DNA of 64,000 nucleotides. It comes from Owenia fusiformis. Its lineage: Eukaryota > Annelida > Polychaeta > Sabellida > Oweniidae. The stretch covers positions 29,949,375 to 30,013,374 of the forward strand of contig CAIIXF020000005.1 in assembly GCA_903813345.2 (NCBI GenBank), written 5' to 3'. Positions within the stretch are counted from its first letter, which is position 1. Each line of letters opens with the position of its first letter. Below, piece by piece: positions 4,001 through 54,400 of the stretch. The notes under the pieces were generated by a model. It saw only the letters and a program-made list of their open reading frames with translations. It had not been told where the DNA came from and ran no database searches. The position numbers and the translations under genes are program-made.

Positions 4001-7000
4001 CAATACATATGGGGAATATTAGTATTGCATTGAACAAAAATGCAATTAGAATGGAATTTTGAATACCTACTGGTTTTGACTTAAAGGGTAACGCATATCG
4101 TTTAGCAAGTCTAACACTCGTTTTTGGTGTTGCTCACTGTTTATGATAAAAGGCACGATCCCGGAATAATACTCAAGGGTGTGAAGGTTGAGGTCAGTGT
4201 GTAAACACCTCTGCCTGTTTATGCAGCACTAGTGTAGTATAGATGGCCATGTGTGTGTAAAAGGGAAATTTTTATTTTGATGATCAATTTTACCTTTAAT
4301 TGGTGAAGTTTCATGATCTTCTGTTTGTATTTAATGAAAAAATTTATCTCTTGATTTACCTACCAAGTATACGTACAAAGCATGGTCTTATGAAATATCT
4401 CATTCATAGATGAAATAAAACATTTTGGACTAATACAAGGATGTTTTTCATGCATCCTTTGGATAAGTCACCCACTCAACCTCTCAATATTTACAGATTG
4501 TTAACTTTTCTACGCATTGTTTTATCTTTGCGAAGACAACTTGAATAAACTGGAATATACCAAACTCCCCTAAATAGACTGATCTAGTGGACTCGTCTGG
4601 AGTCGCCATACTGTATTTATACGGGAAGGTATACATAACCCTTTAAAGTCCTATTGCAAAACAGAATATATTATGTATAATTTTTAGACAATTATGTGAT
4701 AAACAGTGGTAATCTTCCTTGCAAGTGTATTTCTGAAACAGGAACAGTGTAAACACAAGGCATTAACATTCAAAATGTAATCACTTGCCATTTGTTACAT
4801 TTCTTACAGATGCCGAACACAAAATGCCAACCACCACCACTGAACACCACGTGTCAAACACCATCCACAAAAATTGGAGACTATAACAAAACATTGTGTT
4901 ACTATTGAAAAGCAATGTATCCATGTTCTCACCAGATCGTGCATTGTAATTGATCCAAGCTTGTATTGCTCTGGGTGCACATTGATCACATGGGTTGTTG
5001 ATCCCCTCAGTGAATCCAGCTTTGATGCAGGTACCTGGGGCACAACACTGCTTATAGGCGACTTCATTGGAACATTGGTGATAGCATCGGTCATCGACTT
5101 TGATGAAGTAGTTGGATTGCTTGCCTCGGCATACTGAGGAAGAAAGTAGAACATTAACGCCTAATCACACATTTCCACAAGTAGATTGTATTTACACAGT
5201 ATTTCATCATATAGCAAAATAACACTGTAAGTGGTCCACTATAATATTGAAAAGTAGACCTGGAACTCATAGGGTACCAAGTGCAATTCCTGATTTATTC
5301 ACTAAACCAGTGAAGCTAATTTAAATAATCCGTATTATTGATGAGCATTAACCAATTCTATGGGAAAATTCACGATGGGTAAATACTCAGTTTGTTTTCC
5401 TTACCATTCTGTTCTGGCTTGATATCCACGCATGCACTACATGGATTCTTACGTCCTTCCTCCCAGTTGTCTGTCATACATGTACCAAGACAACAACATG
5501 TGTAGATTGGGGTACCATCAACACATGCATAGAAGCAATTTCTGTTGATTGCATCTCCTTTGATGAAATAGTTGTTCTTGTGAGCAGCACAACCTTTAGG
5601 TGGCGGTGCGGTTGTCCAGGGTGCTAGCGTTGTGGTTACTAAATATACAATTTTCATATTATTTCATTTATTTCTTTTATCATTCATACATTTGTAGAGT
5701 TCACATATTCAATGGTATATGTAATGTGAAGTTTAAAAAATTAAATCTACAATAACTTAAATCAAAAGATAATCGTTTTAATGCATGAGACTGCAAGCAC
5801 TTGGATCATGCTGGCTAAAAAACAGTTTCGAGATGATATATAAAGAAATACAGTATAATTACATAAAAATGTTTTTTACTTATATTTCAGCTGGATTTAC
5901 ATGTACATGTAGTGAGACTTGTATTGTATTTTAAATGTTGGGGTTTTCTTAGTAACCTCAAAACTGAATTGTGCAGCAAATCAAGTAATAGAACTTACTT
6001 GCTGGGTTGCAGATAGGATCTAAGATTACAAGAGCAGCCTTAAGTTCAGCTTCTACCCTGGCTATAACATCATCTCCACATCCAATGGTTGCCTTAGCGA
6101 TACACTCGATTGTGATCTTAACATAGCTACAATATAATGTGAACAATATAATTAAATATAATAGTTCATTAAGATTTAGAATATATGTAGTACAGTTTAT
6201 GATAGCATGAGTGACTGAAGACGATATACATGTAAGTTAATATAAAATGTGAAAAAAAGTGAAAAAAATATGAAACTATGGAAATTAAACACCAAGGGTG
6301 TGTAACTGTGCTCTTCATTAACTTCTGATGCATTTCTTTAATTCAATGCATGTGAAATGACCTGAAGGCATGCCCATCTGGGAGCTGTAGTGTAACGAGC
6401 CAGATATTAGACATGAAAGGGATTGTGCTAAATTCAATGCCCAATACGGGAATTGAACCCAGGACCCTTCGCTCACAAGTCATACGCTCTACGTCCGAGC
6501 CATAAGGGCTAGCCACTACAGCTGAGACTGTAGAAGCGACTTGCTATTAAGGGTCATTCCACATGAAATATTCAAATCTTACTTACATGCAAACCTCTCT
6601 GTAGTCCCGCCTGATGATCACTGCTTCAGTGTTCTGTTTGGCAGATAGTTCAAGGAGACACCTGGGAAACATCAAAAATATGAAATAATTACCATTTTGG
6701 TATGTATATTCATTTAGTTAACCATTGCAATACAGATATAGATATATTGTAGATAAAAACTGACAAAACATCTCTCTGACTCAAACTCAAAACATACTTT
6801 GCAGCAGCATCGGTTACATAATATTCATCACACACTCCAGGAGGAGGAGTAGTTGGTGGTTTTGTGGGGCCATCATTGCAGTTACCTCCAACCAATCTCA
6901 GAGCCTCTTCAAATGAAGCCTTTATCCTCAGTTTCACAAAGTCTGAGCAGTCAACTGTGGCATCAAGGATACATTTACGGGTTGCTTCGATAGCGCTAAA

Positions 7001-10000
7001 ATACAATTAATAATCATTAATGTATACATAAAAATATTGGGCGAGACTTGAAAATTTGCATAAAATGTCACTCAATATAAAGTATTTAAAATTTGTTATG
7101 CACTGTACTCTTCAGTATTAACCATTGTTCCATGCTGTTGGATAAAAAAAATAAACAAATAATGTCTAAACTCTGAGGATTCTTATTATGAGACACCCCA
7201 TTCTTGAATGCAGTTTCCAAGATCAATAGTTAGCTTATTTTACTTACATACAGACTTTTTTCCATGATCCTTTACCATATTTGGCATCCAGAATAAGTAT
7301 ACTGAGGTCACTAACACACTTGCTGGCCACGGTAAACTTGCACTTGTCTCCTACAATGAATATAAATAATTCATCTTAATAGTTTAATACAAAATGAGGC
7401 TTACAGGACATGTGTCTCAATATCACATGGAACTGCACAGGGTCGAAGCACAAACATTAGAAATATTAGCTAAAGAGTACATATTGTACATGTTCATACA
7501 TACCTTCACATGGAGCTCTGAAGCATTCCTTCGTCTGTCTCTCCTTGATCTTAGGGATAATCTCTCCAATCTCCCATGACTTGGGCAGTTTAATAGATTT
7601 ATATGAGCCCTTGCCTGATTTTCCCTTGCTGTATCCCTTGCTAGATTTTCCCTTTGATTTGCTCTTGCTCCTCTTTCTTCTTCCTTTTCCTCCCTTGGCT
7701 GATTTACCTCCTTTGCTTGATTTTCCTCCTTTGCTTGATTTTCCTCCTTTGCTTGATTTTCCTCCTTTGCTTGATTTTCCACCAGATTTGCATTTGGATT
7801 TTCCACCCTTGGATTTACACTTTGATCCTTTACATTCACATTCATCAATGATCTCTTCACTTTTACATTTCTTTGATTTACCTTTGCTATCTTTACACAG
7901 GCATTTACCATCTTTGCTCTTTCCTCCAGTGCATTCCTTTGATTCAGGTTTTTCTGGCTTCTTGCAGCCTGCTCCTTTGCAAATCTTGCAGATTTGTTTA
8001 GGTGGAGGTTTAACATCAACTTCACAACTTCCCTTGCTGTACTTTCCAGATTTTCCTGATTTCCCTCCTTTTCCTTTAGAGTTGCACTTTGATCCTTTTC
8101 CAGAATATTTTGATTTTCCTCCTGAGTATTTGCCTGATTTACCTTTTGACTTTCCTTTACTCTTGCTCCTCTTTCTTCTTCCTTTTCCTCCCTTGCTTGA
8201 TTTTCCTCCCTTGCTTGATTTTCCTCCCTTGCTTGATTTTCCTCCCTTGCTTGATTTTCCTCCTTTGCATGATTTTCCTCCCTTGCCTGATTTTCCTCCC
8301 TTGCAGGATTTTCCTCCTCTGATTATGTCTTTATCATCAGGGATCTCCCTTGTTTTGGGTTCAATATCTTCACAGACACAGTTTTCATCCTGAAAATGAC
8401 AGTTTCATATGTTATTTCCAAATAAATGTGCAAAAATGTTCCTCTTTTCTGTTCAAACAAATTTAAAACCTATCCCGATATGAGATAATTATAAATACAA
8501 CTTGTACAATGACAAAATTATGTTTATGCAAAGAAATTTGCAGCTGGAATGTTTTAATGTGGATATGGACAAGGACTCTAAAACATATAAAATTCTTAAA
8601 AAGTCATGCCATTTAAATGGTATATCCATCATATGCAGGAAAGAATTATGCTATAATACAGGGTAACCCAAAATAAATGTTATCATCGTGGTGGAATTAT
8701 ATTGCATGTTTAATTTTGAGATATAGAGTAATCACATTTTCCATCCAGGTATGCTCTCATGTGAAAGTGTCCATAAATGTCAAAAAAATACAATTTTCTG
8801 ATATTGAAATTTCTTTCTGAATTGCTTTCATCCATATTATCAATAGTACAACGTATGTCATATATGCCCCTTTTCTAAACAATTTTGTCAAATATGATGA
8901 TCTGACTTGCTTATTGGGTTTTAAAAAAGATAGATTTCCTTACATATATTTTTGAGTGATTTGGAGTCAAAACATGCCTCCATGAAAAACACAATATATC
9001 CAAGTATTCAAGATGTTGATGCTACACAAGGACACCAATGTTTCATGCATTGAACATCTAAAGATTCCTTTATAATTGAGAAATTCAATCCTAAACTAGA
9101 CAGTAACGTTTATGGTATCACCCTGTATATATCACAACATATCGCAGTTACCTCCTTTGGATCGCAGACTTCCCAAATGCCATCTCTCTTGCATTCTCGC
9201 TCTCTGATTCTCTTTCCAATTCCGCAGTCCTTATCACATTTGCTCCATGCTCCCCACTGAGCCCAGTTCTTGCACTCCTCTGCAAAACAATAAAACTAAT
9301 TTAATCGGTATGACATCATATAAGACTGAATGCTTTAAGATATAGTATCTACAACTATTTTTGATGTTTTGAGTTTGGTTATCAATTTAAATTTATTCTT
9401 CAACAAGTATTGTAATGACTTCAGTATGAATGAAAAATCCATTGGTGATCTGGTCTCGGACTGTGATAATGGAACTTTAATGGTGGGAAGGGTGTTTAAG
9501 ATACTGTTTCTTTTCAAGTTAATTGTTTGGGATAGTTGGGCTTTGTTTTCCTTATGACTCTGATGTACCCTAAGCAGTATATGTTTTATTTTTCTTGCTG
9601 TGTTCTGTTACAGTTTTTGCTCGTTTCCCTTTGGCACTTGTGCATACATATTTATATTTATTTGTGTGATTTCTGGTGATATTGGTTTCTGAATAAGCAT
9701 CTGTGGGAGAAGGGTGTTTTCAGCATATTCATGTTTATTATTGTTCTTTTTTATGATTCCTTAATATGTTTGTAATTCCTCGGCAGAAATTGTTATTTAA
9801 ACAAGTGCAAATAAGTTTAAATTTTCAACAAAGTATTAAGCATATGTATTATATTTCAACATTGAACAACGATGAATATATACTTTTTGGCAAATTGAAC
9901 TTACCTCCTGGATACTTGGGTATTTTATCTGTGTTACAAAGATTGCTATTGCAACATTCATGGCATCTGTCAATAACTTGGCCATCATCACATTCATCAC

Positions 10001-13000
10001 GATTGTTAAGTCGCTTATTTTGACAAGCCTATGAAAAATAAAGATAAATGCATGGAGAGAATTGGAGAATGTGAATAAATTGAGTTAACATATTTACTAG
10101 ATATTTCTTTTGTATTCAGCAGTAAATTATTACAAAAATATAATCCACTGGATATCCTTGTTACATTCATAACTTTGTGACATTCATAATTTTGTGACAT
10201 TCATAACTTTGTGACATTCATAATTTTGTGACATTCATAACTTTGTGACATTCATAATTTTGTGACATTCATAACTTTGTGACATTCATAATTTTGCGAC
10301 ATTGATAACTTTGCAACATTCACAACTTTGTGACATTCATAACTTTGTGACATTCATAACTTTGTGACATTAATAACTTTGCGACATTCATAACTTTGTG
10401 ACATTCATAACTTTTAATATCATTAAAAAAACTGAGTTGAAAAGTACAATATATATTGTATGTTGAGACTGGTAAGTTAAACAGTGAAGTACATACATTC
10501 TTTCTCCTGCAGCCTTTAGACATGACGAGTCGTCCATCATGATTCTCAGTCTTGATGAAACAGCTGAACTGACCATTGGCAGGACATGGGACTGTCTCAC
10601 TAGATTTGTTGCAAGTACTTGGATTCAATCTATCGCAGGTGTAACACTCAAAGGTCTCGACAAAGACTGGAACAACAAACAAAATACAGTAATAACTGAA
10701 TCAATGTAAAAGATGCAAGTTATATAGAATAAAATCTGTATATCCCAACACCCCTCTAATCTGAACACATCTAAATGTGAACATTTTTTATCTCATATTG
10801 ACTCACATTAGTGAGTTAAAGTGAGTTAAATCTTAGTGATAACAACTAAAAAAAGATATTTTATTTTTAATTTTGTTACCCTTTTAAATTTAAATTTGAA
10901 ACCACATTGTGCGCTGATTAGAGAGAATATGGTATTTGTAATAACAGTACTTACTTTCATCACAATTTGGTCCTCTAAATCCTGGTGGACACTTGCAGAA
11001 ATAATAGTTATCTAGATTAAAGCAGCTTCCTCCATTTCGACATGATCCACGCCAGCAAGAACAATAGCCCTGCACCTATACATTAACAATACGAGAAATT
11101 ACTACTTTTTCTCCATCTTTTACACAATTAAATTTCATATCTGCAATTAATGACTTTGGCAATTCATGTAGATGCTAGTGGTTGCATCATACTAAGTCTC
11201 AAAACATAGGAAATCACAAATTGATAAGAGCCCTTGTTCATTTTAACAAAACCACTAATGATGATAAAAAAATGATAAGATATTGATAAAATTAAAAACT
11301 TTACAACTCAATGTATCTGTTTTATGTTTTATGGATCTATGAAAAAAGCATTTTCATATTAACAAGATTTATAGTTTCATTTACATGACGAAGTGCGATT
11401 ATATTCTTCCTGTTTATTATAAATGCAAGTGTATCAAAGGAACTTTTTTATAGGGGGATATATCATGCAAAATGAACATAGTAGTTGTTAGGGGGATATA
11501 TCACACAAAATGAACATAACAGTCATCTATATATGTGTACCTGTCTGAACATCGCATCAAATTCTGCCATGATTGAAACAGCTAGACTTCCAAATGGACC
11601 AGTACATTGTGATGCAAACTTGTAGACACACTGTTTCCTGGCAGAGATGTCTCTACAAAATACATACACATACAATGTAATAGAGTAAAACTTAAAAAGT
11701 GGAACACCTCTGTAAGTGGAACACCTCCATAAGTGGAACATTTTGCAGTGTCACATGACTAACTGACTCAATGTTAAACAAACCTTTGTTTGGAAGTGCA
11801 ACACCTCCCAAGTGGAACACTTTTTAGAGGTACCAAATATGTTCCTCTTACACAGGTTTTACTGTAAATTGACTCTGAAATATATTATCTGTAAAAGGCC
11901 AGACTGTATAACACATATGGAGAGACAAGTTTGTGTCCCCTGAATATTTATAAAAGAATTAAAACTAAATACGCACTTCAATATAAGTGTGTATGTAATG
12001 CAACGTATGTGTGCATGTACTATACCAAAAACTAAATATCCTCAAGGTTCACATTTGTTAAAGGAACATTCCTTGCCAAACCATCTCTCTCCTCATATGG
12101 TAGCTATAACCATATATATGCTTGCCATGTTTAGCAAAACACACAAAAATGTTTTGATATGGTCAAATTTGATCACTTAGAAATGTGATGCTCAATTCCA
12201 GTAAGCTGCCATCTTTTAAAATTTCACACAGGAAGTGATGTCATCGACTCTCAACTTTGCATATAGCATTAGGTGAGGAGCTATTAAGAATAACAAAACC
12301 AGCTAAATATTCTTTTTCAACTTTGTATCTTATTTAATCCTTCTGAAAATCTCTTCTTTTATTCTAAGTTTACAAGCCCTGAACATATTTTTGCACAGAA
12401 ATTAATGATCACTTATCTAGAAGTGATTTTGTGCTACTTTCCTATACTGTTATGGGCAAGGTTATAGAAGTTGAGAGTTGATGACATCACTTCCTGCAAG
12501 AAATCTTAAAAGATGGCAGCTCACTGGAAATAAGCACTAGATTTTTAAATGATCAATATTGACCATATTAAAACATTTTCCCATGTTTTGCTAAATATGG
12601 AAACTATATATATGATTATAGCTACCATATCAAGAGAGAATGGGTCTGGCAAGGAATATTCCTTTAAGCATAATCTCCTTCCTGATGGAAGAAATGAAAT
12701 GAGGAAAACTATAGCAACTGTCATAATTACTGATAGTGCGATTCATATGGGAATCCTAAAACGTTCAACCCTATTTCATTTATTTGAATAATGTTCCAAA
12801 AGCCTCAAGGTATTTCCATTCCTAATTAAAAAATGGGAATTTATATTGTTTTGTAAGTGCTGTCTGCTGGGGAATCAGTCTTTTGGGATCCATTTGTTCA
12901 AATATGATCTTGTTTCAAAATTAGTAGTTATGTCGTTACAGTGACAGTTAAATACTAAAGTAGTTTTCTATTGTTTTAATGTTTTGATTATGCATTGAAA

Positions 13001-16000
13001 TAACAATACCTGGGTGTTAATCCATAGAAAATCCTTGAAAATGAGAAATATTTTTTAGGATTATATATATATTGATGGTGCAATATTATAGTCAATAAAA
13101 TGTTTTAAAGGGTATTGATGTTTTTTAGATGAAAAACACAAGCGAAATGCATGAAAAAGCTTCCCAGATTCATTCAACAAACAACTCGAGGTCCTTTCTT
13201 TCAAAGTCATGCGGTTTTTTACCATTTTGGGACAAAATCATCAACCCCCCCAGAACAACTGAACAACCATCCATGGGAGAGGTAGGTTACAATTGAACTC
13301 CATAAATGTGGTAAATAATCTGACATTGAATGTTTGAGATGCTTCTTAATTAGATGATCTCCAGTGTCACTTTATTTAATTCTACATGCATCAGCTTTTC
13401 TCAATTTATTTCTGCCATTACAGTTCCATATTAAATCATTAATCATGCATTGAAAGCTGTTGAACATCACAAATTAGAGTTATTATGCATGTTTTGGTTT
13501 GAGAAGTAAATGAAAATACAAGATGCTCACAACATAAAGATTGGATCTGAGAAATAATGTGATAAACAATAATTTATAGTATATTTGTAGGGAAATAAAA
13601 ACGACATATAAGTAAAATGAAATTTCTTTAATATGAGAAACGGTATTATTGTAAATTGAGTTTGCAGATTAATAGCTTGTCTGTGTGGCTAGAATGAATT
13701 AGGATTTCTAGGTTTGCTTATACAACTGCAAATGATACAGATGCAGCATTACAAGACATAAATTTGTTGCAACTGGGCTGTATCAAAATTTGACTGAAAC
13801 TATAGCTCTATGGATGACAAACAAATCAAATAAAATGAATAAAAAACAAAAATCATCACTGGTGAGTCCTAATACAAAAGTACAGAGATTACAAAACTAA
13901 ATTATAAAAAATAAATTACATTATCTGGTAGCATGCTGACATACAGTATGCCATACATTATACATATCAGTACAGGAATCATCTGAATGAACAAGTTAAA
14001 CAGTTAGACAGTGAAGAAGACCCAAATAAAAAAATACAAGAGCTACAATGGATATATGTCAGTCGGACAAGTGTGCTTTTTGGCCAGACAATTCCACAGA
14101 CACTAAAGAAAATGTCAATATTTCAACGGGATTTGTATTTTACACAACTATTGTAGTATATAATATTATTACTATATTTGGACTCATAGGAAACGGACTA
14201 TCATTGATTGTATATAGTCGAGAGAGGAGACCATGCACGAGGGTGTTACTTTTGAAAGCACTGGCCATAACAGACTCTTTGCATTTATTTCTACACATGC
14301 CATACTCATGGATCATTGGCCATCACTTTGGAGTCGTGGACATAGGGGAGGATCTATATGAAAACACAGCTCGTATTTTATCAAAAATGCTACCATTGGT
14401 TGCGACTTCTGTTACATTGACATCATGGATGGTTGTTTTGGTGACCTTGGATAGATTTATACATGTGTGTATTCCATTACGGGCAAACACACTGTCAACG
14501 ATAGTTCGTACAAAAATAGGAATCGCCATATTAGTCCTAGCAGCGATATTGTACAACCTCCCAAGGTACTTTACAGCATATCTAAACCAAACACAAATGG
14601 CTACGTACCGAATCATTTATGAATTAATTCTTGATTTCATATTCAGACTATTTGGTCCAGTATTCACAGTGTTCTACCTTAATATCAAACTATGTCACTC
14701 TATCAGAGAATCGCAAAAACTAACAAGACAACTAACTAACAAAGAAAAGGATGAACAAAGTTATACACTGACAATGATTGCAATCGTTTCCCTTTTCATT
14801 TTATGTTCAATTCTCGGCTTTATCACAAGAATATTTCGTATATTATCTGTGCTTCGGATAAGTTCTTACATGGATCCATATTCATATATTTTCAACCAAC
14901 TTAGCTATCTTTTTCAAGTATGTAATTCTGCGTTTAACTTTGTAATCTATTTTCTAATAGGGAAAAAATTTCGTAGAAAATTAAGACGTATTTTTCAGCC
15001 AGAGAGTATAAGCGCTTCAGATGAGAACAATATTCAGTAAAATAAGATAAATATGACCAAACTAATAAAGGGAAACCAACCATACTTAACTGATGGAGTA
15101 ATTCATGCATTGCTTAAGGATAATAAAGCTCATTAGATGAGAGTGCTTTATCCAATTTTACAATACATTTTGCTCATATTTTTCTTGTTCTTTCCTTGTC
15201 AGGGTATAAAGAACAACATTATTTAACACATAATGCATGTCTCAGATTGCGATGTATTATTGTTAGATAATAAATAAACAAATAAATAAATAAAATGAGT
15301 TTATTTCATGATAATTACAAGGCACTGATTTATGGGCTTTTGACCTCAAAGAAAATCTTGACCTATGTAAATCATACTAACTGAACACATGACGTTTAGC
15401 TTCAGAAAGCTTTGAAATACACAACATGGATACATTATTACCCTGCGTGCAGAGTCTAGTTAAACTACACTCTGCCTAGTAGAGACCACATTACAGTTTA
15501 GTAGCCCCGCCCCCACGACGGGTACCGGTGACAGTTTGGGTAATAAATCACTTTTGACCTACGCGCTGACCTTTCTTCCACCAATCAGCGAGCTTGAAGA
15601 AACATACGCCAAATGCTTCTAATTAAATATGCGCATGTCATTGGTCAATTCCGGGCTCAACGATGACGTCAGAAGGAATGACCATATATAGAACGTCGGT
15701 CAAATTTGGCCGACGAACACTGATTGGCCGGTGTGAGTTCACAGGTTTATTTTAGTTTGAAAGAGTGAAGACGAAGCTCTCTTTTAAGAAAAGAAGTCAA
15801 ACGAATGCAAAGGGTAATACATTATGGAATGACACAAATGAATTGACCTTTGACAAACAACTATAAATATGAAAGTTAGCTGATGACCTTGAATTGACCT
15901 TTGACCTTGAGTCCATCGCCGTCCCATGTATGATACTTTATCCCATGATAATGCTCCACCCGTTAATTAAATTGAGAGTGTTTGTGATAACATAGGTTCA

Positions 16001-19000
16001 TAAACATCAATGAATACAAGTGTAAATATATCCAATTGCCTCAGCCCTACTGAATAGTACAAGAGGCATAATGGATAAATAACATTAAGGAAATACAATT
16101 TATTATAAACCTTTACATCTCCCATGATTAATAGAAAGTTTAATATCTATACATCATTAATAGAGTATCAAGGTTTAATATTTATCTTGAGTAACAACTG
16201 GAAAATAAGAACTTGAATGTCAAAGTGACCTTTCAATTGTGTTAAAAAATGATGTAAACAACGTGAAAAACAGCACCTGTAAATTGAAATATTTTTTGCA
16301 CTGTAATTAACTGCATAGCCTTTAATCATAATATTGAATTGTATTGTTTTAGATTAATTTCAATATCCCAGTCTTAAAATGCCAATATGATTGGTTAATT
16401 AAAAGTCGACTACATTGACTGTTGACTGCTATAATGTACTGTTCAATACTGATATGGTTTATATTCTTACTTAACTATTCTCACACATTCAGGCCCGTAG
16501 CCAGGATTTGCCAAGGGGGGCTCACTTTTTGAAAAATTCCAGGGGGGGATTCACTTGTGACAATTTTGGTCCAAAAATGCCCAAAATCACTTAAAAAGTG
16601 CTCAGAATGGTGAAAAACTGCATGATTTTGAAAGATTTTTGGCCAGGGGGGGGGTGTGCTCGAAACCCATCTAACCCCCCCCCCCCTGGCTATGGGCTTG
16701 ACATTGCATATATTCAAAATGTTCAGAAATTGGATGTGATTGTGGGGCTCCTATTCTATGTTTAGTTTGCATGACATTATTACTTAAATCAATAACATAG
16801 CAAAGGTTGTTCAATAAATACTAATATAAGCTTTCTCATTTTCTTGTTAATGTGAGGGAATCAAGATGACATTTTCAGGAATTGAAGACAATTTGTATTT
16901 CTTTATACTGACCAAATTATATTTTATTCTGGGTACTTTTAAAGTTACAGCAAAAGTATATACACGTATGGATGAGGGCACCCAGAGCAGTTTTTTCCTT
17001 ATTTTAAGTTCCCTAAATAAACTATCGCATTGCTCAAATCTTTGAAAATTTCATCTTGTTTTCTTTACAGATCACAAATGAGACAATTTGTATAAGTATT
17101 AATTGAACAAACCTTATTAATGTGGTTTGAGGGAAATCAAAATACCATTACTTGTTGGAAAGGATAAAGTTATGGATAAGTCCCATCTCTTGCTGACCTA
17201 TCCAATTTTAAAAACAAATATACATACAAAAGTATGTAGCTTTTGCTTCAGAGAATTTCTTCCCTATCACATCATCCAATGCACTATCACGATCTCCTGA
17301 TATCATGATCCTGACCAATTAATACTAATAACTAGACACTGTAGTCACATCTGACTGCTCTTACAGATATATAATATACTTAGTGTTCAGAATCTAAAAA
17401 CAATTTTCACCTTGATCCTATCATGTTAATAAACACTTCAAATATTCTTTTATGTCAATAAACACTTCAAATATCCTATTATGTTAATAAACACTTCAAA
17501 TATTCTATTATATTAATAAACACTTCAAATATTCTATTATATTAATAAACACTTCAAACATCCTGAATAATTGTTTAATATTTCTTTCATTTAATGTTTT
17601 TGTGAATATATTTATATGAGACTGGGACTTAATTATTATGTGACGCCTAATATCATGGGCTTTCTAGTTGAAAGCCCATGCTAATATCAATGAATAATGT
17701 ATCATTGGTTTATCTTTAATAATCATTTTCAAAAGGACAAGATACATTTCTTAATTTAAGCAATAGGCTATATAAAGTTAACCTATCTTGTTATAATGTG
17801 AATTTCCACAAAAATTAATTTAAATTATACTTACACACATGTTTGTTTGTTAAAGATTCCTATGACAATGCTAGCCTTGAATTCTACAAGACATTTTGCC
17901 GCAGCATTCAGGTCACATATAATTGGGGGCGAAGTTGGAGCAACAGTGCTGACACCTGGTGGGCGGGTAGGAGGCAGAGTTGGCGGAAGAGTTGGTTTTG
18001 GTGGGCATTTTACAGCCACAAATGCATTTAGTTCTTGGATGAGTGAAAAAGAAGTAATCTGCGTTTTTGCTGAACACGTATTGACATTTTCAAATATGCA
18101 GGTGATGCTGTTTTTCAGTTCCCTAGAAACAAAGATACATGTATGCATTTAGTATAACAGATATTTCATTTTTTGTTTCACAAAGGATAACTCTTTTAAG
18201 TAGAAAAAGTTACAGCCATTTAAAAATGTAGTGTGCCAAAATGGAAATGTTGCGTCACTTTCAATGGAGGACAGAGTAAAACAAGAGTGTTTCAATGAAG
18301 ACGTGAATAAGTCTAATTGTGTAAAAATCCTAAGAATAGACTACTCACAGTTCCATAGTACCACAGACCAATCTTGGCCCAGAGAGGTAGATAGCCACCT
18401 TGCCGTAGAACTCAATAGCACATGTCATTGCAGCATCAATGTTACAGCTAGGTGGTTCTGTAATACACAAATGATGACATGTGCATTCATTTTTATTAAA
18501 TGCAGAAACAGTGAAACCTATAAAGTGGAGCATCTCTACCATATGATAAAGTTAAGAATTTAGATAATTGTGATGTCAAAGAGGTAAAGAGTGCATTCTC
18601 TCATTCTTGTGAATGTTGAATTCATTTTTTGAGTTGAATCCTTCTATCAGTGATTTTATATATAAGTACATTATTTGTCATCATCAATGGTAGAATCTCA
18701 TGATCTTAAAATGCCCTAATCATATTGAGAAAAGGATTGCAATCTTAAAAATGCCGAATACAGCTTCAAATACAACACAAAATATCCCAAATGATACCCT
18801 TATGGGTTTTATGTTTGAAGCCAGTGATGTATTTTTACAGTGGTATAAAGAATTATGTGTATATATCTATAAAATATAAGGTATTATGTTATAAAATGTT
18901 AAAAACATCAAAAACAACTGAGATTTATTTTTGTAATTCTCAATCATTTTTGATGATCATAAAATATAAAATAAACAAATAAAAAAATTGTAGAGAGTAT

Positions 19001-22000
19001 AAGCTTACCTGTGGGTAGTACAGTAGGCACTGTTGGTACTGTTGGTACAGTAGGCACTGTTGGTACAGTGGGAGCACTGGGGTCTGTCACAACAGGAGGC
19101 AGAGTTGGTGGTGAAGGTGTCACTGAAAAGATCGATTCAGTTTCAAACAGTTAACTTAATTACAATTGTTTTAGGGGCTTGGTCGATATTTCAATGTCTG
19201 TCAAAAACGTAATTAATTCTGGAGTTAATCAGGTCTTAACCCCCTCCCCCTTCCCTTTCTAATGATATATTACGAGTGAATTCAGAAGATTGATTTTAAG
19301 GTACATGTATTTCCAATGTTTCTTCATGATGCATGATGAAATACTGCATGTCAAAATGATAAACGATGAACTGTGTAAAAAGTCTATTGAAAAAACACAT
19401 GTGTTCTTTCTGCACTGTATTATTACAAATAAGTCATACATACCTCTTATTTTACACTCTGATTCAAATGATGAAAATGTTTGTTGGAAAAATTTATCAG
19501 TTTCAATTTTGATACTGTCTGGGCAGGTGGTGATAGAGGATGACAAACACTCAAGCTTTTCATCTTTGTACTTGGCACTACAAATTAAGAATTAAATTCA
19601 AATCTTGCTACCTGGTAAGCTATTACAAATGATTGCAAAAGTGACAATCTCGCTACCTGGTAAGCTGTTACAAATGATTGCAAAAGTGACAATCTCGCTA
19701 CCTGGTAAGCTGTTACAAATGATTGCAAAAGTGACAATCTCGATACCTGGTAAGCTATTACGAATGATTACAAAAGTGCAATGGTTTGTACAGACAGATC
19801 AAACGACAATGGTGGCTAAATCAAAGCTCATTGCTTCTTGATGGTGACACAAATATGTCTGATATTCATCTTGAATCAAAACTATCAAATATGCTGAAAT
19901 TATCAAATGGTTTAACTTAAATCACTGTACAATTGTTTGTGTGTTATGGGATATTGCTGTCTACTAGTACAATGGTATAATCTTACACTAAGGAGAGTAT
20001 TGAAACACTCAAAATGTATGTAACTATATTATGCTTATTGGTGCATGTTAATGAAATAACAATCACTGAATGATAAACAAAGTTGACTTACTCGCATACA
20101 ACATTGGCATCAACGAGTCCAAGGATCACCTTGACAACAAGCTCTGCAATTTCCTGAGTACATTTCCTTGCATTCTCAATCTGTAAATATGTAAATGCAC
20201 ACATTCTTTGAGCTTCTGTTTCAATTGTACATGTTAATGATGTAAACCTGTTCAATAAGATTTGAACCCTTCCAGCTTACATGTATTTAACCCAATTCAT
20301 TATTTCAATTTTACTGTCCTTATAAAATATTGAACTTCGACAAAATATTTGACATTAATATGCATTTTCTAATCTTCTACAGACCCGGGAAATCCCAACA
20401 GATCTGAGCCCTTGAGCAGGCTTTCTACTCTTTTCTTAAAGTGAAATGTTTAGTGGATTGAATTATTTTTTGAGGCTAAAGTTCCACAACTGGTATAGAA
20501 AATCTACAACATACAAACTGATTATCCAGCTATGGCCACAGTATGGATCAAGTGTGACTGAGGCATTAGACACTGTTAATTTTCTCAGTTTGTCAATTGT
20601 TACACCTTAATTAACATTACCTTGCAGGTGACAGGTATAGGTGTCGTCACTGGTGGTGAAGCTTCACAGGCGCCACCTATAAACTCTAGAGTAGACTCCC
20701 ATTCTGCTCTTATATAGTCCCTGATCTTGCCATTACAACCAACCACGTTCTCAAATACACAAGACTCCTTTGCCTTGATTGAACTAGAACATATACACAA
20801 CTATAATACAGCATGCTTTTAGGTTAACAATACATGTATGTACATGATTATGAACATTTACTAAATATGCTTTATAAACTGACAAAAATACAAAAATAGA
20901 AGCTTGATATGAATTTTTCGAATGAAAAACATGGTGAACAGTTTGACATACTTCCATTAAAAATGAAGTCTCACATTTATAGCAGCATTATTTTCCCTTA
21001 ACTATTTATCAGCATTTACCTGCAAATTTGTGTGTAGTCGCTAGAGCCTGATGTGATGAACTCTATGATGACAACTCCTACCTCAGTCAGACACTGCATG
21101 GATGTATCTTGTTTGCAAAATAGCTTATCTGTAAACATACAGTAGAAGGTGGTAAGTGAAACACCTCTGTATGTGGAACAACTCACAAGTGGAACAGGTT
21201 ATTTGTAAAGTCCTGTGGCCCATTGACTCCATGTTAATGAACCTCTGTAAGTAGAACTCCTCACAAGTGGTACATTTTTTGTGGTTCCATGGGCGTTCCC
21301 ACTTACACAGGTTCCACTGTACAATGTATGAAATTGGTAGTTTAGCTACAAGCCATTGTGAACCCTCTTTACACACAACCCACAATGCATCCATTCTCAA
21401 TAACTAGGCACATTTCCATGAGTGAAATGGACCAAAAGTGAAGTTGGTTTAAATGGTTTCAATTTGATGTTTTATTATTTGAATATATGTCAAGTAGCTA
21501 AACCGCAAATATCTTCATCAATCTCAAACCCCTTCATGAAAAATTTGCATGTCGAAGTGCATATGATATTATCTTAAAAATGCAAGTCTCTGTCATTAAC
21601 GTTATAGTGGGGTGTCATATCAAGAGACCTGTATTTTGAGCCAAAGCAATATTCTCATGTTTACTTTTGCATCTAAAAATAAGGATATATTTTGCCTTGA
21701 TAATGAATCATATATCAGAAATTTTGGAGATATATAATTGAAACAGACTCACATTGAAGACGGAAATCACAGATGAACTTATTATTCCCTTTCACGAACA
21801 AATCCTAAGTGCTACACGTCATTTCAATTTTGAAGAAAATCAGTCTAACTACGTTACATTTAGCTTTCTTTTCTGATGATGGATAGTATGAAGAATAAAA
21901 TGATAGCTACGTTTTGGTGTTTGACACAGGAGGCATGATTTAATTGAGATTTTTATATCATGACACCCTTGGTAACGTATATGATTCAAAAATAGTAACA

Positions 22001-25000
22001 TCGTAGAATCAGTTATATCATTATGAATAATTGCAAAATATCAACTGGTGTTTCTTATACCATGTTTACACTGAAGTTAAAGCAATAATAACACTTGAAA
22101 CAGACATAGTCCAACGCCTAATCATGTTACGTAAATGATGGTGAAAGTCACTAAATTCTAAAATAGCTACATTAAAGATAACACCAACCTCAACTATGTA
22201 TGCAACACATATGTAATTAACTAAGTGCAACATGCGCTACATGTTTTAAAGAAAAAATGCAGGCTTAAAGTTACTTTTTCTTTCTTTACACATTTTAAAT
22301 GCTAAAATCCTTTGTAACGTAAATGATACAAAACTCACAATCGCGGAATCAATACTATTTAGTATAAAATATGTGAGTATCGTCAAGAAGAAGTAACGCT
22401 AAGTGTCTCCTGATATCGCTAAGTGTCTCCTGATATCATACGATACATAACTACTAAAAACTTAACTTATTCCTCCATTACCTTTACTTTGTCATATATA
22501 TCCTGGGCTAAGTTTGCATCTCAGGACTCAGTTCGAATAGCCTTGGGGTTGGCTTCTCCATTTCAGATAAAATATTAGTATTGGAGATTTTCAGACAAAT
22601 AATGTCACTTTTTAGAGGAAAAAGACACATTTTGCTTCTCCATAAAATAATTTCCCTATCATTAGTATCTACACTTACAAAAAATATTTAAATCAGCGGT
22701 TATCATAAACTGCAGTGACATATTCGCCAACGTGTACCCCAATATCTTCACTGTCAGTATGCATGTCTCTGACATTAACACTCTTGAAAGGTGTTGTTGT
22801 ATCTTCTTGTATCCATAAACCTGTGTGCAGTTCGGCTTTGACACGATTTATTTGCGTTGACCAAGGTAGCCTATGTCCCTTTGCCTGTGACAACCGTCGG
22901 GTACACAGTCCCGTTTTGTTGTCCTATTGCAAAATTCATGTTTAATGTGTTACTTGATCATGAAACACTGTCATAGCCGCTTGTGTCACAATGATTATTT
23001 CGGCATCACTGGGGTCAATAGCTGCCAATAGTATCTTCTCTGATTTTTCTTTTGTTTTTTCTTGCTGTTAGGCTATTTATTTATTCTTAAAACGACCTCT
23101 TTATCTTTTCAGATGACATTGCAGCTATTGGGACATAAAATTATTGAACACGTTCTTTGGCCTTGTATGATCCACCTATTTTGTTTTTTCCTCTCATGAT
23201 AGTATTTTTGAATTTCTGCACTAGTCTCTCCCATCTACAGAGTGTACATGTTGATAAATAAATATACCGGTAAAGTATTGACGGCAAACAAATGTGTGCA
23301 GCAGAGTTCATCAACTACGTTACCATCGGTAAAGTAAGTTATCATATAAAAACACAGGGCCAGAGCTTCAATATAAAATCAATGAGAGAAACATGTTTTT
23401 ATGTTCATTTTCACATTTATTCTAACAATGTTTATGCCATAGTTAACATTAAATTAACAACATAAATTCGTTTCACATGAGAGATACTATATAGGGTGTA
23501 ATACATACCTTAAATTGCGTGGTTTTACTCCGAAAAAGTGGTAGACTTTCTTGATTCAGATTCAAACCAATATGTGAGCTTAAATTTCCCTCGTTATAAA
23601 CTTTATTCAGAGCTAGGAGTATGGTAATAGTTATTTTCGTACCACAAGGTATCGAAAATGATGGTATTGTAAATGATGCAAACGACACTCTCGCTGCTGT
23701 ATTGTATTCAAACAAAGTTAAATTGGTTGAACATAGTGATTAATCAGGTACACCCCTACCATACAATTGGTTGATATAACATGAATATGCTCAACTACGT
23801 ATTGACCGTGGAAACATTGATCACGTAAATGATTTTCTTATCTATAACTTCATGAAAAACTGTGATTATAATTTTCTAATGCCCAAATCTTCACGTTTCC
23901 AACAGCAACTTGTACGACGATATTTTTGTTTGGGGTAATATGACTTCACCACAATTTGACATCGGTTTCTAAATAGCTACGTATTTACAGATTTGACCTA
24001 AATTAAGCTAAATTTTGAAATAATTTGTAACAAATTGAATTTCAAAAACAATTTTAACATTCTGGTCAATCCTATCCTATTAAACACCATTATAATCCAC
24101 AGGTAAAAGCAAAACTGAACCAAGCAGGAGTGACTGTTATAATGTTACAATGTTATGATGTTACCCCTGAAAGGTCACATGTTAAATCCATGTGAAACAT
24201 TTCACTTTGTCCAACAAAAGGTAAGCGATCGGTGGCTACCTGTGAGTCATTGGACGAATATGGCCTCCCGATCGTAGGCCAACGAAATTTTGAAGAGTGC
24301 AGACTCACTGTTAATGATGCCTTAAATGACAAAATACAAGCATTTTCTGGAGATTTTATGAGATGTGAGCTATTGGAAAAGATTTTTTAATCGAGTGAGA
24401 AAGTAGGAAATGCTGTAGTGGTAGGATGGGATAGAAATCCACGGAGGGGTGTCTTTAAGTGCTCTGATAAACCTTTTTAGACTTAAAGCCAACAAATCAT
24501 ATGATACATGCACCTACCCATGTATTGAGAGTATTAATAGGGGTCTTCCCTCTTAAACGATAATAAAACCACATTTACAATATTCCTATTTAGGAGTTAA
24601 AACATCTCCAACACATAGTAACAATATCTTAAGAGAACATATAAACCATATGTAATGCAATTAGTTTGTAATCAAAATGTAATCAAAATGATTTAAAACT
24701 CTTTGAAACTGCAAAACTGGAAATTTTCGTCGAATTTTGTTAAAACATGAACATTTTTAAATTGCTTGTTTTTCATCAATATTACTTAAATTTCCAAATA
24801 AAAAAATTTGAGTGTCACAAAATGTTTCAAGTTAAAGTATGCCGAATTTCATAAGCAAACTCTTTTTGGATATTTTTCTACAATACATCAAAGTAGGCGA
24901 CAAAATTGTGTGTGGGGTACTATATAATTCATAGCACAAGGGGGTAAACATAAAAAAGACTGGCGACATTTGCTTGGGAATATTTTTGGTAAGGTGAAAA

Positions 25001-28000
25001 TGTCAAAATGATCGTTTCTGTCATTTGACTAGAAGCTAGGATCATGTTGTGTATAAGAAAACACTTTATATGGGATGTTACGTTTAAAAAGTTCATCAAT
25101 GACACCATACAATCCTGATTTTTGATATGGCGAAAGTCACGTAAATTATGAATAGGCAAATTCTAGTACATATAATAAAATATGTGTAACTTAGAAATCA
25201 TATATTACATACGTGCTTGGTAGAGGGTCATATATACTACTTGTAAACACATCAAAAATTGATGTCAGTAATGTTAATACTAAGACTGAGCCTGGCGACA
25301 TCAATTGTGCCTAGTTATTGAGAATGGATGAATGGTGTTGGTGAAGCAAATATGGAGACTTCAAGCAAGATAAAAATTACCTATAGCAATATGGGATCAA
25401 AATATACGAAATGGTGGTAAAGTATAAACAGCAAGACCAGACCATGTGAATCGAAATAAGCATAGGATTACCTCCACAATTGTCTCCACTCCATCCATCA
25501 GGGCAAACACATTCATAGTCTGGTCCAGGGATGACTTTACAGGTGGCACCATTCTGGCAGGGGGACTTATCACAGGGGGGTTTACATGTATCACCAAGGA
25601 CAGCCTCGTACTCTAAGAGTTGTCGATTGTAGACCTCTTTAATGTTATCCGCACACTCGAGGACTGCCTTGTTTAGACAATCTACTGCAACCTTAACATG
25701 TCTGAAAAGGAATGCTTAGTGTTAATACAGTATAACCTGTGTACAATGAACACCTATTGAGTCACAAAAATGTGCTCACTGTAGGTAGGTGTTCACTACA
25801 GAGAGACATTTTATAAAAAAATCAGTGGAGTACATGTATGTGTTGAAAGGGATCTTCACTACACACAGGTCTTCATCAGAGAGAGGTGCTGAGAGGTACT
25901 AGGCTATTGTTCAAATATGTAAGTTAACGTCATTGTTGAGAGGATGCTCTTTTTATTTGACAAGTGGATTAAATTGTTTTTAGTCACCATAATGATGAAC
26001 ATTCTTAAAGGCAGAATCAGATCTAGCAAGTAGTCAGTATCATGATCTGGACAAGAATTGCTTCAATTTTAGAATATTTTGGGCTTATATCATTCCTTGT
26101 CATATATTTTTTCAAAAATTACCCAAATTGTACACTTTGTTTGAGGAAATTTTTTTTTTCAATATTCAGTTTACCATTTTTATTATTTGGGAGAATTTTG
26201 AATTTTTCCCCACTTTGGCACTTTGAACCTTTAATAACTAACAGTTTATAACATATCGTGGATCTTTTGGGAGATAATATTTTGAGATTGTAAGGAATAT
26301 ATTGGTGGGTCAACTGTACATGTTGCTTGCAATTTTTCACCCTCTATGGATCTGATTCTGCCTTTAATTATGCTCTCTCATATTATAATGCAGAATCATT
26401 GTGTGTCAAACATAAATAGTAATCCACAAAAATATATATATTGAACATATGTAAAAGTAATAGAATTAATGTGTTCATGTATGTAACTAATCTCCTCTGA
26501 AAGATTTACATCTTACATGTATGTCCAGTACTTACACACAAATTGCACTGTTTGTGATTGTTGGGTTGAGAATCTTGGCACCCAGGTAAGTAACACATTC
26601 AGTGGCTTTCTTGATGCTACATTTCACTGGAGGTTTAGTTGGTCCAGGAGTGGTGACAGGGGGTGGCACTACAGTGCATTTGTCTCCAATGATCACATCT
26701 ATGGTTGCGACAAAGTCCAAAATGTCCTTCTGGATTGAATTGTCACATTCCACTATTGAAGTCATGATGCAGTTCAGTGCGGCTTCAAATTTGCTGAAAT
26801 AGATATCGAAAAAGAACGAAGGTTATATATGTTACATTGTATGGGAGGTATAGGATATGAGGTGTATCTTGAGGAAAATATAAGGTCCAAGGTAAGATAT
26901 TGTAATTCCCCATAAATATTCCACATGTTAAAAAGTGAATATCACAATTCGCAATTGATATTTAAAATTTGTCATAATTTCAATTACTTTCATTATTCAT
27001 ACTTTAGCTATAGTTCTGTCAAAGAAAAGACCATCAAACCCAACACATTTTGGTAAAACAAAAAAGCTAGGACATACTGGTTAGATCCATTGATGATATC
27101 ATTGGCTGTAGGTAGCAATCTGACCATGCGAAACTATATGATAAACTTATTGCTAACTTGAAAAAGGTACAACCAATGACATAATCGATCTACCAATACG
27201 ATAGCTTCTTTAATTTACCAAAAGGTGGCAGGGTTTATTGGAAAAGTCTATTATTTCAAATAATTACAATGCATGTATACAGAACATATCAGAATTTTGT
27301 ACTTACTAGCAAAAACCAGTTGCAAGTATACTACTGGGAGCATTGAGGGCATTAAACAAGCGAGCATTGATGTCTATGAGGCACACCTTGGCCTCATCCA
27401 CCAAGCAATTGGGATTCTGTGTTGGAGGGGGTTGTGTGGAGACTGGTGTATCTGGGGTGGATTGAGGCACCTGGGTACCAGCTGGGGTGGTAGTGATCGC
27501 TGGTGTAACTGAAAAAAATCAATATTCTTCAATACATAGATGTATATGTACAGTATTTCAAAACATCACCAAAAAGTACTTTTTCAGTGGCCACAGCGGA
27601 CAATACACTGCCAATGCAATGTACATCTACATTCTCATTGTGTTTCCCATTGTGTTATGAATGGGTCTAAAACTCTGTTTACACAAATGGAGACATGACA
27701 TACTTGGATCAGGTCTGCAGGCTCCGCTGAGGGTCACTTGTTCCACAATTGCTTCAAAGATGAAGTTGATTTCTGTTTGTTGATCTTTGGTACATTTGAA
27801 CATCCCTCCCCTGATGCACTGCCTTGTCTCTTCAATCATCCTGTAATGACATAAAATACTGAAGTGTGCAGTTCTGTTGAATCACACAAAAATACTATGT
27901 AACAATTAACACTATTATTTGGGAGAATTTTTAAATTTTTCCCCACTTTGGCACTTTGAAAAAAATTACTTTTGGGAGATAATATTTTTGAGATTGTACG

Positions 28001-29629: not shown

Positions 29630-29735
29630 GATGGCTCTACAGCACCTTTAGGGCGACTGCTCTCTAAGATTGAAGCCGAGGAAATGATGTTGGGAGGCTG
29701 GGGAAATATAATATGTGAGGCCCAGACAAAGATGA

Positions 29736-44153: not shown

Positions 44154-44324
44154 AATGGCTATCTTTATTTGCGTCACTAAAACACCAGAAAATATCCTGT
44201 CTTTCTGGTGACTGTGCGCCCTCTTAGAAATCAGCTAAGAAAGTGATGGTTCGAGAATGGTAACGTAAAACCCGGATGACATTGATAGATAGATGGGTCA
44301 AAGGCCAAATAGTGCCAAGATCAG

Positions 44325-48292: not shown

Positions 48293-48319
48293 TTTATTTC
48301 TGAAGGTGACATCTTTATT
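48293..48319 (-). terminator. Poly(A) signals downstream of gene C
   Basis: TTTATT on the plus strand (AATAAA on the gene strand) at 48293-48298 and 48314-48319, 130-160 bases after the stop at 48451. They support gene C ending here rather than continuing to the left. Confidence 0.45.
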
Positions 48320-48450
48320 TGTCATTGAACACATCTAAAGGCTAAAATATGATAAATATGTAACTCACCGTCATTTACATCACCATTAGAATGCCATCGT
48401 TGATTTCTTGTGCATTGCCATTATCAAACTTAACTTACTTTTCTCTGCTT

Positions 48451-51400: not shown

Positions 51401-54400
51401 CGAGTCCGAAGCCATATATACCACCCTCTGAGCCCCACCCACTAGCTCTAAATCCAGATCCGGATCCAGATTCACCTTCTAAGTTTGAACTATCACTGCC
51501 TGATGCGAAACCATTTCCAGATGATGATGATGATCCACTTCCTGATATACCCTGATCAAGATCAATGCAAGTGGAACCTCCAAAGCAAGGGTTTGACAGG
51601 CATCCAGTTTTTGGTGGATTTCCTGTAAAAATAAATTACTCAACATTCACTAGTAGCACAAGAATGTCATCCTGATTCTCAAGGTTTCAGTTGCTCCAAC
51701 TTGTGTTATAACCACCTTGGTTCGTCAAAGATGCAAAAATGTATCATAGCTTATAAATATTTATATTTAATATCAAAACTGAAAGTGAAGCTTGAAATGT
51801 TTTTGTCCAAACTTACGTTTGTCACAAAGTGGTCCGCTATATCCAGATGGACATTTGCACTCGAAACTGCGCTTTCTTGATGTAGCAGTTTCATCACCGC
51901 TTCCCATTCCTATTTCAACATATCCTCCACTCCCTAAACCACTTGGTGATCCAGAATATGCGTTGTCAGTTTCACTGTAGCCGTATATCCCATCATTTGA
52001 GCCCCAACCGCTAAAGCCAGATCCGGAGGACGATCCGCTTGAATCCTTTCCAGAACTGTCTCCGCTTCCAGACATTGAGCCATCACCCGACATAGTCCCA
52101 CTGCCTGAATCTGCTCCACTTCCTGACATATCATTAAAGGGGAGATCGATACACGTGGCACCTCCAAAACATGGGTTTGATAAACAGCCAGATTTCGGTG
52201 GAATTTCTGAAATAAGTAAATAAGACTAGCGATTTATACACTAATATCACAATGCAACTATCGTTAATGAAGTATGGTTATACGATGCTCATCATATTGT
52301 TATGGGTTCAAAAGTTTATGATTGAGAATTTGATTTAGCAATACTCCAGTCTTACCTTTGTCACAGAGTGCTCCAGTGTAACCGGGCGGACATTTACACA
52401 TAAATGTTCGTTTGTTGGTTGACATGTCAGTATCATCGCCACTACCTCCGCTGCTCAAGCTATCTCCACTGCTCATGCCACTTCCACTGCTCATGCCACT
52501 CCCACTGCTCATGCCACTTCCACTGCCCATGTCACCTCCACTACTCATACCACTTGACTGACCACTCCCACTTGACATGATTGAATTACCACCAATTCCA
52601 CTTCCATAATCTCCATTACCAATATCATTGAAGCCATATATTCCATCTTCAGAACCCCAACTATCAGATCCAGACCCTGATCCAGAGCTTGATCCCGATC
52701 CTGAATTAAACCCTGATCCATTTCCAGAGTTGTCACCACTTCCTGATCCACTTACAGACCCGGATGTGGTTCCACTCCCAGAAATACTTTCACCTTCTCC
52801 AGATTCTGCACCACTTGTACTTTCATCACCAGGTAGATCAACGCACGTGGCACCTCCATAGCATGGATTGGACATGCAACTCGATCCACGCGCACTTGTA
52901 GATGTAGTTGCTACTACTGTTACATCTTCTACAAAAGGTATAACCAAGTAATATTAATGTGCACCATACATGTATATGTTCATTTTTAGATAACCAATGG
53001 CGATATATCTTTATATATTTTTTTCTCTTATATATAACAATATATGGGCCTTTTGTGTTGTCATATAATGTTGTCCGTTGTGTCATTACACTTGGGCTAA
53101 TCGTACAGATCAAACTGAATAAGAAATCTCTAAAACACACACCTTTTTCACAAAAGTTTCCTTTGAAGCCTAGTGGACACTGGCATTTTATACCCTTGTT
53201 TTTATAATATAAATACTGCCTTAGGAATGTATCATCTCCATTTATAGTATACTCTTCTAGGATGCACATTCCTCCATTTTCACACTGCACATTTTTACAC
53301 AGTAGGTCTGGAAAAATTAAGATAAAGATGTAAATTTCTTTGGAGACGTGTTTCTGTAATGTAACGATCTTCGTATTCAAATGTTGCTATTTGTGATTTG
53401 ACACTCAACTGAATTTTTTCAACAAATTCAAACATGCATGAAAATTGCAAGTATGATAGAATGAAATGTGTTAGTATTACACAACTGTAACTCAGTCTTG
53501 TTTAAAACAGGGTTATGTTAAAGAATATCAGTGCCCGAGGCCAGAAGCCAGAAGCCTGTTTCTGAAGCCTCTGCTCGCAGGCTCGTCGCATACATCTGTA
53601 AAGGTATGTTTTATTTTGTGTACCTACTCACAACAACACATACCATTTATAGTGTGTTCAGAGCATGTATCTTCAAGTAAGGAGAGGGCAGCTGCAAGAG
53701 AATCAAGAGCCTGCTCTTTCATATCCTCCATGCATCCCACCGTGTGTCGAATAACGCACTGCACAACGTTCGCCCTTTCACTGCAACAAAAATATGTGTT
53801 CGTTATACAGCTTCAATTTTATGTCACCCCCACAAGTGGTGACATGTTGTTATAGCCCCCAATTTTTGTGGCGGCTATCGGCAGTTGGTGGTTGGTGTTC
53901 GTCAGTTGGCGTTTGGCGTTTATAACAAGGGGGTGATATTTTGCCCGCCAAAGTCTGTTATTTGTTGTTATGAAAATAAAATGAAATTGTCTTATTTTGT
54001 CTTTAAAACTAGGATTCCTTCACCCTCGATAAAAGTAGAGATTATACTTAAAATACCTGCATATATCTATGTAGTCATTTCCTAAGATGGAATCTATTAT
54101 TCCAGCACCAGTCGCCTCATTGACGGTCAAAGTAAAATTGGCTATACAAATCGGAACTTTTCCAAATTCGCATGGTTCTGAAAGTAAAATGTTTAAGTAC
54201 AGTAGATATCGTTATTATGTTATTTTTATTTAATTTTTCATTATTTCTTTACAGCATTTTACAGTGGCACTTTATAAGCACGTTAACATTTAAAATCTTT
54301 AATAAAAACCTTTTTTATTATAGGTGAAATAAAGATCCATGGTCATGTGAAATGCAGTTGGTCAACTTATGAAACTCATTGCATTTCACTACAAAGTAAA

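Follow-up and report, generated by a model that had tools for sequence, protein, structure and literature searches.

A repeated, exon-shuffled six-cysteine domain of extracellular proteins in the annelid Owenia fusiformis

Genes and six-cysteine units at the locus

A stretch of 64,000 nucleotides from the genome of Owenia fusiformis (C5:29949375-30013374, hereafter the window) carries 11 copies of a unit with six regularly spaced cysteines, all on the minus strand, ten of them in one large gene (gene A) and one in a second gene (gene C). The unit qualifies as a real domain of extracellular proteins, some 70 residues long and with the pattern C-x7-C-x17-28-C-x8-C-x7-C-x22-C, and it consists of a half A (C1-x7-C2-x17-28-C3) and a half B (C4-x7-C5-x22-C6), with C3-x8-C4 formed across a splice. 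To reconstruct the units in the window, six-frame translations were combined with splice sites, and the genome searched for further copies comprised 498 Mb in 525 contigs. An earlier note on this DNA had already assigned ten units to gene A and a single one to gene C, and this count is confirmed, with all 11 units scoring above every one of their shuffles in which the cysteines were held fixed.

Within the window, gene A (160..29629, minus strand) is an in-frame model of 32 predicted exons, which encodes 2143 amino acids without a stop and contains the array of the domain together with EGF, Ly6-like, TSP1, Lys/Ser/Gly-rich, CBM14-like and Thr-rich stretches. Its first exon in this model (29542..29629, minus strand) encodes MANHKGYVLFLSLCLATAANA, which judged by eye resembles a signal peptide, and ends in a phase-1 donor. 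The gene appears to continue past the window edge, where additional CBM14-like exons and half-units are found; two matches to half B (E 5e-7 and 8e-5) and a weak one to half A (0.2), all past that edge in locus L003, probably belong to it. The model of gene C covers a probable signal exon joined to one unit, named C1 (53663..54172, minus strand; exons 54057-54172 and 53663-53780). The probable first exon of this gene (56875..56938, minus strand) encodes MVKAGLFAVLCFVITVSAQES, taken as a signal peptide from its hydrophobicity, and has a phase-1 donor, from which the frame continues into the exon at 54177.

The ten units of gene A, all on the minus strand, are numbered A1 to A10. Unit A1 (28477..29073) is formed by exon 28971-29073 and the start of exon 28382-28600, and the remainder of the latter exon (28382-28476) opens, with no linker in between, unit A2 (27717..28476), which is completed by 27717-27840. 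Unit A3 lies at 26676..27407 (27307-27407 and 26676-26793) and A4 at 25584..26621 (26536-26621 and 25584-25701), the latter being followed by an EGF domain within the same exon. Unit A5 occupies 20666..21117 (21020-21117 and 20666-20783), while A6 (19454..20626) is composed of three pieces (20621-20626, 20092-20180 and 19454-19577) because its C1 and C2 are parted by an additional intron in phase 0. After A7 (18005..18446; 18349-18446 and 18005-18122) comes A8 (11061..17917; 17835-17917, 11541-11652 and 11061-11075), the C6 of which is found in the next, EGF-like exon. Unit A9 lies at 6878..7342 (7248-7342 and 6878-6995), and A10 (6009..6832) is assembled from 6798-6832, 6587-6661 and 6009-6126, its C1 and C2 being parted by an extra phase-2 intron.

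The spacing of the cysteines is nearly constant. C1-x7-C2 is found in 10 of the 11 units, with A10 (x11) as the one exception, and C4-x7-C5 in all 11, both as the earlier note had described them; between C2 and C3 there are 17-28 residues. The two deviating spacings that it had listed, x10 and x12, do exist (in A6 and A7, respectively) but belong to the C3-C4 interval, which is x8 in the other nine units when that of A1 is measured from the Ile that replaces C3. The distance C5-x22-C6, previously given without exceptions, holds for eight of the 11 units, whereas two spacings are longer (x24 in A2 and x25 in A8) and A1 is without C6. The missing C3 of A1 is likewise borne out, but the description was incomplete, for this unit also lacks C6 provided that the border cysteine between A1 and A2 is counted as C1 of the latter; among 24 aligned units, namely those of the window and 13 of gene D (see below), A1 alone lacks C3 or C6. 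Between the cysteines the sequences are highly diverse (15-30% identity to the first sequence in the window set), and when the columns of half B were tabulated, the consistent non-cysteine positions proved to be hydrophobic.

Homology, intron phases and copies elsewhere in the genome

The recurrence of the pattern goes far beyond chance. A strict search for a splice acceptor followed by C-x7-C-x20-25-C gave nine matches on the minus strand of the window and none on the opposite one. In first-order Markov shuffles, of which 20 were made, the strict half-B pattern occurred 0.1 times on average and once at most. Profiles of the half-units found 12 half-A matches in 11 open reading frames (ORFs) and 12 half-B matches in 12 ORFs, all on the minus strand and with a single marginal match of either kind, and no match on the plus strand; these profiles were built from sequences that include the window units themselves, and the leave-one-out profiles are the independent control. 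When each unit was left out in turn, all 11 scored 25-57 bits, while none of the shuffles with fixed cysteines (100 per unit) exceeded 20 bits or reached the score of its real unit. The units are therefore homologous in sequence, beyond the spacing of their cysteines.

The intron phases are equally regular. An intron directly after C3 separates C3 from C4 and is in phase 2 in all 11 window units. The signal-like exon of gene A joins unit A1 in phase 1, and the seven gene A introns at the borders of units or linkers (joins 0/1, 3/4, 6/7, 10/11, 11/12, 19/20 and 23/24) are all in phase 1; in gene C, the probable signal exon joins its unit in phase 1 and in frame. Phase-1 edges and neighbours that are shuffled modules, the two marks of a class 1-1 shuffled module, were thus both found, and the domain behaves as an exon-shuffled module with phase-1 edges and one characteristic internal phase-2 intron. 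The joins in the window units are supported by gene A staying open and in frame across its 32 predicted exons and, in addition, by intronless copies with equal spacing in a further gene, gene D.

Gene D shares its chromosome with the window and is found 8.4 Mb away, at about 38.434-38.460 Mb. A genome search with the exon that carries half B of A3 and half A of A4 (the B3-A4 exon) returned 18 matches, including one to itself, 13 in gene D (E 0.019-0.24), a gene D-like copy on chromosome C1 (0.02) and three weaker ones, one of which is again in gene D. Searching back from gene D, with one of its exons as query, gave 48 matches and reached four places in gene A (E 0.0125, 0.24, 0.53 and 8.9). 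Direct reading of the gene D exons showed an intronless C-x7-C-x21-C-x8-C-x7-C-x22-C, and automatic pairing, for which the x7, x8 and x7 spacings were required as they were not in the direct reading, yielded at least 26 units, 14 of them contiguous in one frame (six distinct) and 12 across a phase-2 intron. At the level of half-units, 13 half-A and 37 half-B events were recorded, with 13 of the half-B events in contiguous copies of one type; all these counts are lower bounds, the donor pattern having missed half-A exons. For the set of 24 aligned units, 13 of the 18 distinct gene D units were taken, near-identical copies being dropped, and five rows ending in CC were shortened by their last C. 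The spacing of seven between C1 and C2 and between C4 and C5 is present in all 13, as the pattern used to collect them required. N-glycosylation sequons occur in all 13 aligned gene D units and in the single unit of gene C, and in none of the ten of gene A.

Two kinds of unit alternate in gene D (L023-L024, C5:38.435-38.451 Mb), and one of them is without the C3/C4 intron; this intronless unit is present in 13 copies with 91-99% nucleotide identity (mean 95%). A Kringle domain (E 9e-21) lies just upstream of gene D at L022:7308-7613 on the plus strand and may or may not be part of the same gene. On another chromosome, a stray gene D-like copy (L008, C1:60.298-60.301 Mb, minus strand) adjoins a long Thr/Pro/Ser repeat.

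Several other features accompany the genes in and beyond the window. The 6-kb intron of unit A8 harbors, on the opposite strand, a single-exon rhodopsin-type receptor (14030-15037, plus strand; 7tm_1, E 2.3e-10). A long gene A exon (7504-8389, minus strand) encodes a repeat of basic character that is rich in Lys, Ser and Gly (KGGKSSKGGKS); cysteines are scattered through it, and it has no Pfam match. Upstream of gene A, tandem Kunitz domains (31993-32496, minus strand; E 3.9e-40, two stretches) follow an EGF-like segment, and two blocks at 35066-35677 and 32589-33093 (minus strand) contain 60-base tandem copies of a Cys-rich segment resembling the start of an EGF domain, HPCKSKPCINGGTC. The EGF, Kunitz and TSP_1 domains and the receptor indicate an animal genome. 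Moreover, three copies of an EGF-like plus Ser/Gly-rich segment lie about 558 bases apart at 48451-50697 (minus strand) and share a 300-base core at 96-100% identity; near 51878 there is a fourth, at 93%. Past the window edge, CBM14-like exons form a tandem array with a period of about 430 bases (L002:2298-4450, minus strand), and the one ORF of it that was tested had no Pfam match.

Predicted fold, architecture and proposed role

As no unit is contiguous in the window, a structure was predicted by AlphaFold2 (AF2) for the contiguous B3-linker-A4 exon, with an alignment of 18 exon pieces. The predicted local distance difference test (pLDDT) score is 74 overall and 83-87 over the first 30 residues, and the predicted template modelling (pTM) score is 0.56. 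Helices were placed at residues 2-13, 18-38, 60-74 and 81-84, with C4 within and C5 just past the first helix and with C1 just ahead of and C2 within the third, which suggests that one unit would be ordered as helix 1, C3, helix 2 and helix 3. The hydrophobic periodicity of half B in eight sequences has its peak at 95-100 degrees over columns 9-28, which is helix-like. Most likely, as judged from this partial model, the domain is a three-helix module made of a 'twin CX7C' hairpin and a third helix.

Such a module could form an up-down-up bundle in which helix 1 would start from C1 and bear C2, helix 2 would run from C3 to C5 and bear C4, and helix 3 would lead from C5 to C6. The antiparallel CX7C helices 1 and 2 would be cross-braced like a ladder, with C1 facing C5 and C2 facing C4, while C6 would return to the C3 end, where a C3-C6 bond might pin the top of helix 3; the disulphides would hence be C1-C5, C2-C4 and C3-C6. 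The C3-C6 pairing is suggested by unit A1, which lacks both of these cysteines, and this is the only sequence evidence for any of the disulphides and comes from one unit. The product might be a small, stiff and protease-resistant bead.

All six linkers checked are 58-66% Pro, Thr and Ser, and where such a linker is present (there is none between A1 and A2) it sits outside the units; these Pro/Thr linkers are probably O-glycosylated. The neighbouring modules include EGF (5.2e-8) and TSP_1 (2.5e-6), as well as Ly6 (0.0013 and 0.0026) and CBM_14 (0.0051), all of the latter failing to reach their cut-offs. Strung on Pro/Thr linkers and interspersed with modules of the EGF, Ly6-like, TSP1, CBM14-like and basic Lys/Ser/Gly-rich kinds, the beads of such a secreted protein, which exceeds 2000 amino acids, could be structural spacers in a mucus-like or chitin-associated extracellular matrix or tube. 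A structural role in a matrix of this kind would be the most economical reading, and a secreted, shuffled three-helix module acting as a structural matrix spacer is, taken as a whole, the best explanation, toward which the evidence inclines by a little. The further proposal of an undescribed extracellular family, with a 'twin CX7C' hairpin and three layered disulphides, confined to one animal lineage and expanded there into giant secreted matrix proteins by exon shuffling and, once the internal intron was lost, by recent tandem amplification, is put forward tentatively and stays short of probable.

Several observations weigh against this interpretation. Five unit borders of gene A (A1/A2, A3/A4, A5/A6, A7/A8 and A9/A10) lie inside one exon, some gene D units have extra cysteines or an odd number of them, for which three bonds do not account, and most of the CBM14-like pieces tested were without a Pfam match, the single CBM_14 match being the weak one given above. 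The AF2 model was built on a shallow alignment and covers half B of A3 and half A of A4, which leaves the packing of helix 1 on helices 2 and 3 outside it. No chain of the PDB was matched to this partial model by Foldseek, and since the model is partial, the blank result is no evidence of a new fold. In addition, the periodicity peak moves to 180 degrees when columns 10-27 are taken, so that the helix support from this analysis is weak, and the predicted C1-C5 and C2-C4 pairs come from geometry alone. Finally, if the cysteine at the A1/A2 border were C6 of A1 (x25, the spacing also seen in A8), A2 would be without C1 and the argument for C3-C6 would fail.

Alternative explanations and relation to known families

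None of the Pfam models reached its cut-off for any of the 24 units, and the view of the earlier note that this is a real, repeated, amphipathic-helical domain without a recognised name is supported. At E<=1, ten families had a match, each to a single unit and none to two, the best being Tissue_fac (0.0049) and DUF1397 (0.0094), on different units. NCBIfam profile searches were empty or weak, and the best E value against PDB profiles was 0.19; a strong match to a characterised domain, which had been named beforehand as a finding that would speak against the claim, was found in neither the Pfam nor the PDB profile searches. The other such finding, wrong joins, did not turn up either, the intronless copies being in favour of the joins. 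In the protein database, the unit profile led to 173 candidates with none at E<=0.01, and residues 20-385 of gene A to 2351 with none at E<=0.1, while the query A1-A8 (7998 candidates of about 450-1444 amino acids) found two EGF-bearing proteins over 8-11% of its length, presumably via the EGF domain. These database searches need shared five-residue words and a similar length, and distant or longer relatives may escape them. A description of the domain was not found in the open literature searched.

An artefact, in which exons were joined to suit the pattern, is scarcely credible: the joins were indeed located by searching for that pattern, but the 32 predicted exons remain in frame, contiguous copies elsewhere have equal spacing, and the plus strand and the shuffles yield essentially nothing. 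The fold unit might also be half as large, that is, a duplicated C-x7-C-x22-C hairpin for which a half B, its linker and the half A of the following unit would be an equally valid grouping. The spacings of the two halves are similar, AF2 placed helices in the B part of the B3-A4 exon as well as in its A part, and a local profile-profile comparison gave P 0.0068; yet the probability in that comparison was 5.6%, a global one gave P 0.058, and the similarity is weak and cysteine-driven. With gene C having one A-B unit after its probable signal exon, gene D containing 14 contiguous A-B copies, the Pro/Thr linker, where present, parting B from the next A, and three cysteines per half being an odd number, the smaller unit is most unlikely.

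A closer rival is that the domain represents a divergent branch of a helical Cys-rich invertebrate family, chiefly DUF1397, and hence a far relative of proteins that are catalogued but uncharacterised. Unit A2 was aligned with PF07165 (DUF1397) over positions 142-204 of 207, from C2 to 18 residues beyond C5 (E 0.0094, 15.8 bits), and three joined units gave E 0.15 in two stretches. Moreover, the DUF1397 search of the genome scored a single candidate, a 40-amino-acid ORF with C-x8-C-x7-C (L058, C1:3846800-3846943, minus strand; E 0.238, 18.7 bits), which is weakly recognised by both profiles. DUF1397 matches it over positions 167-197 (18.2 bits), and the unit profile gives it 9.3 bits with C3, C4 and C5 in register, a score attained by none of 999 plus-strand ORFs of the window. 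A different gene that has a related domain may include this ORF as an exon, and the two profiles seem to share a C3-C5 core. This apparent register makes a distant DUF1397 tie a live rival, not a membership, because A2 is the one unit of 24 that matched, all matches stay under the cut-off of 25.7 bits, and the genome search found no place over the cut-off and did not retrieve the units. In addition, the unrelated Tissue_fac did better on another unit, and the L058 ORF is short, lies between stops and is not demonstrated to be a gene. A divergent DUF1397 branch is thus considered unlikely. As for function, recognition is the main rival to a structural role: the domain would then be a diversifying module of secreted immune-type proteins, either an inhibitor or one that binds a ligand, a glycan or a microbe, in keeping with the low identity among the units, the Ly6-like and TSP1 companions and the two Kunitz domains upstream. 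However, the consistent half-B positions are hydrophobic, no conserved surface motif was noticed, though no dedicated test for one was made, and the near-identical gene D array (13 copies) resembles a structural repeat, which renders recognition rather improbable.

It is rare for a new extracellular domain to be present in such numbers, with a constant intron position and with an intronless control within one genome. A module added in this way to the animal matrix kit would help the annotation of unnamed giant proteins in related animals, and it would offer a test case for the extracellular use of helical hairpins with regularly spaced cysteines, which are known from mitochondria. If the DUF1397 lead were true, an uncharacterised insect hemolymph family would be tied to a repeated matrix module.

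DUF19 (PF01579), the T20D4.11-like family of nematodes, comprises Cys-rich, probably helical, extracellular proteins. The earlier note had drawn it and the 27-kDa hemolymph glycoprotein family into loose comparison, and the two have fared differently. DUF19 shares the cysteine richness and probable helices with the unit but had no profile match at E<=1 among the 24 units, in a search where the HMMER filters drop most matches above about 0.1, while DUF1397, the family of the 27-kDa glycoprotein, has gained weight from A2 and the C-x8-C-x7-C register of L058, though below its cut-off, and is the best lead in Pfam. The nearest working analogy is provided by the twin-CX9C (CHCH) proteins of mitochondria, of about 10 kDa, which have two antiparallel helices that carry two spaced cysteines each (PMC3848088); in the unit, the corresponding hairpin with its cysteine pairs is a prediction. 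No Pfam match of the twin-CX9C type was obtained for the units, and instead of cysteines nine apart, or three, they have a spacing of seven (C1-C2 in 10 of 11 and C4-C5 in 11 of 11 window units), a third cysteine pair, a predicted third helix and a place in secreted multidomain repeats. With spacing and location both different, the unit is not a member of that family. EGF, Kunitz, CBM14 and TSP1 are class 1-1 exon-shuffled modules of secreted animal proteins, and the unit resembles them in its phase-1 borders and in being mixed with such modules, whereas it is predicted to be all-helical and has an internal phase-2 intron that is lost in some gene D copies. The family is without a name in the libraries searched, and its kind is a known one, that of the disulphide-rich, exon-shuffled extracellular module.

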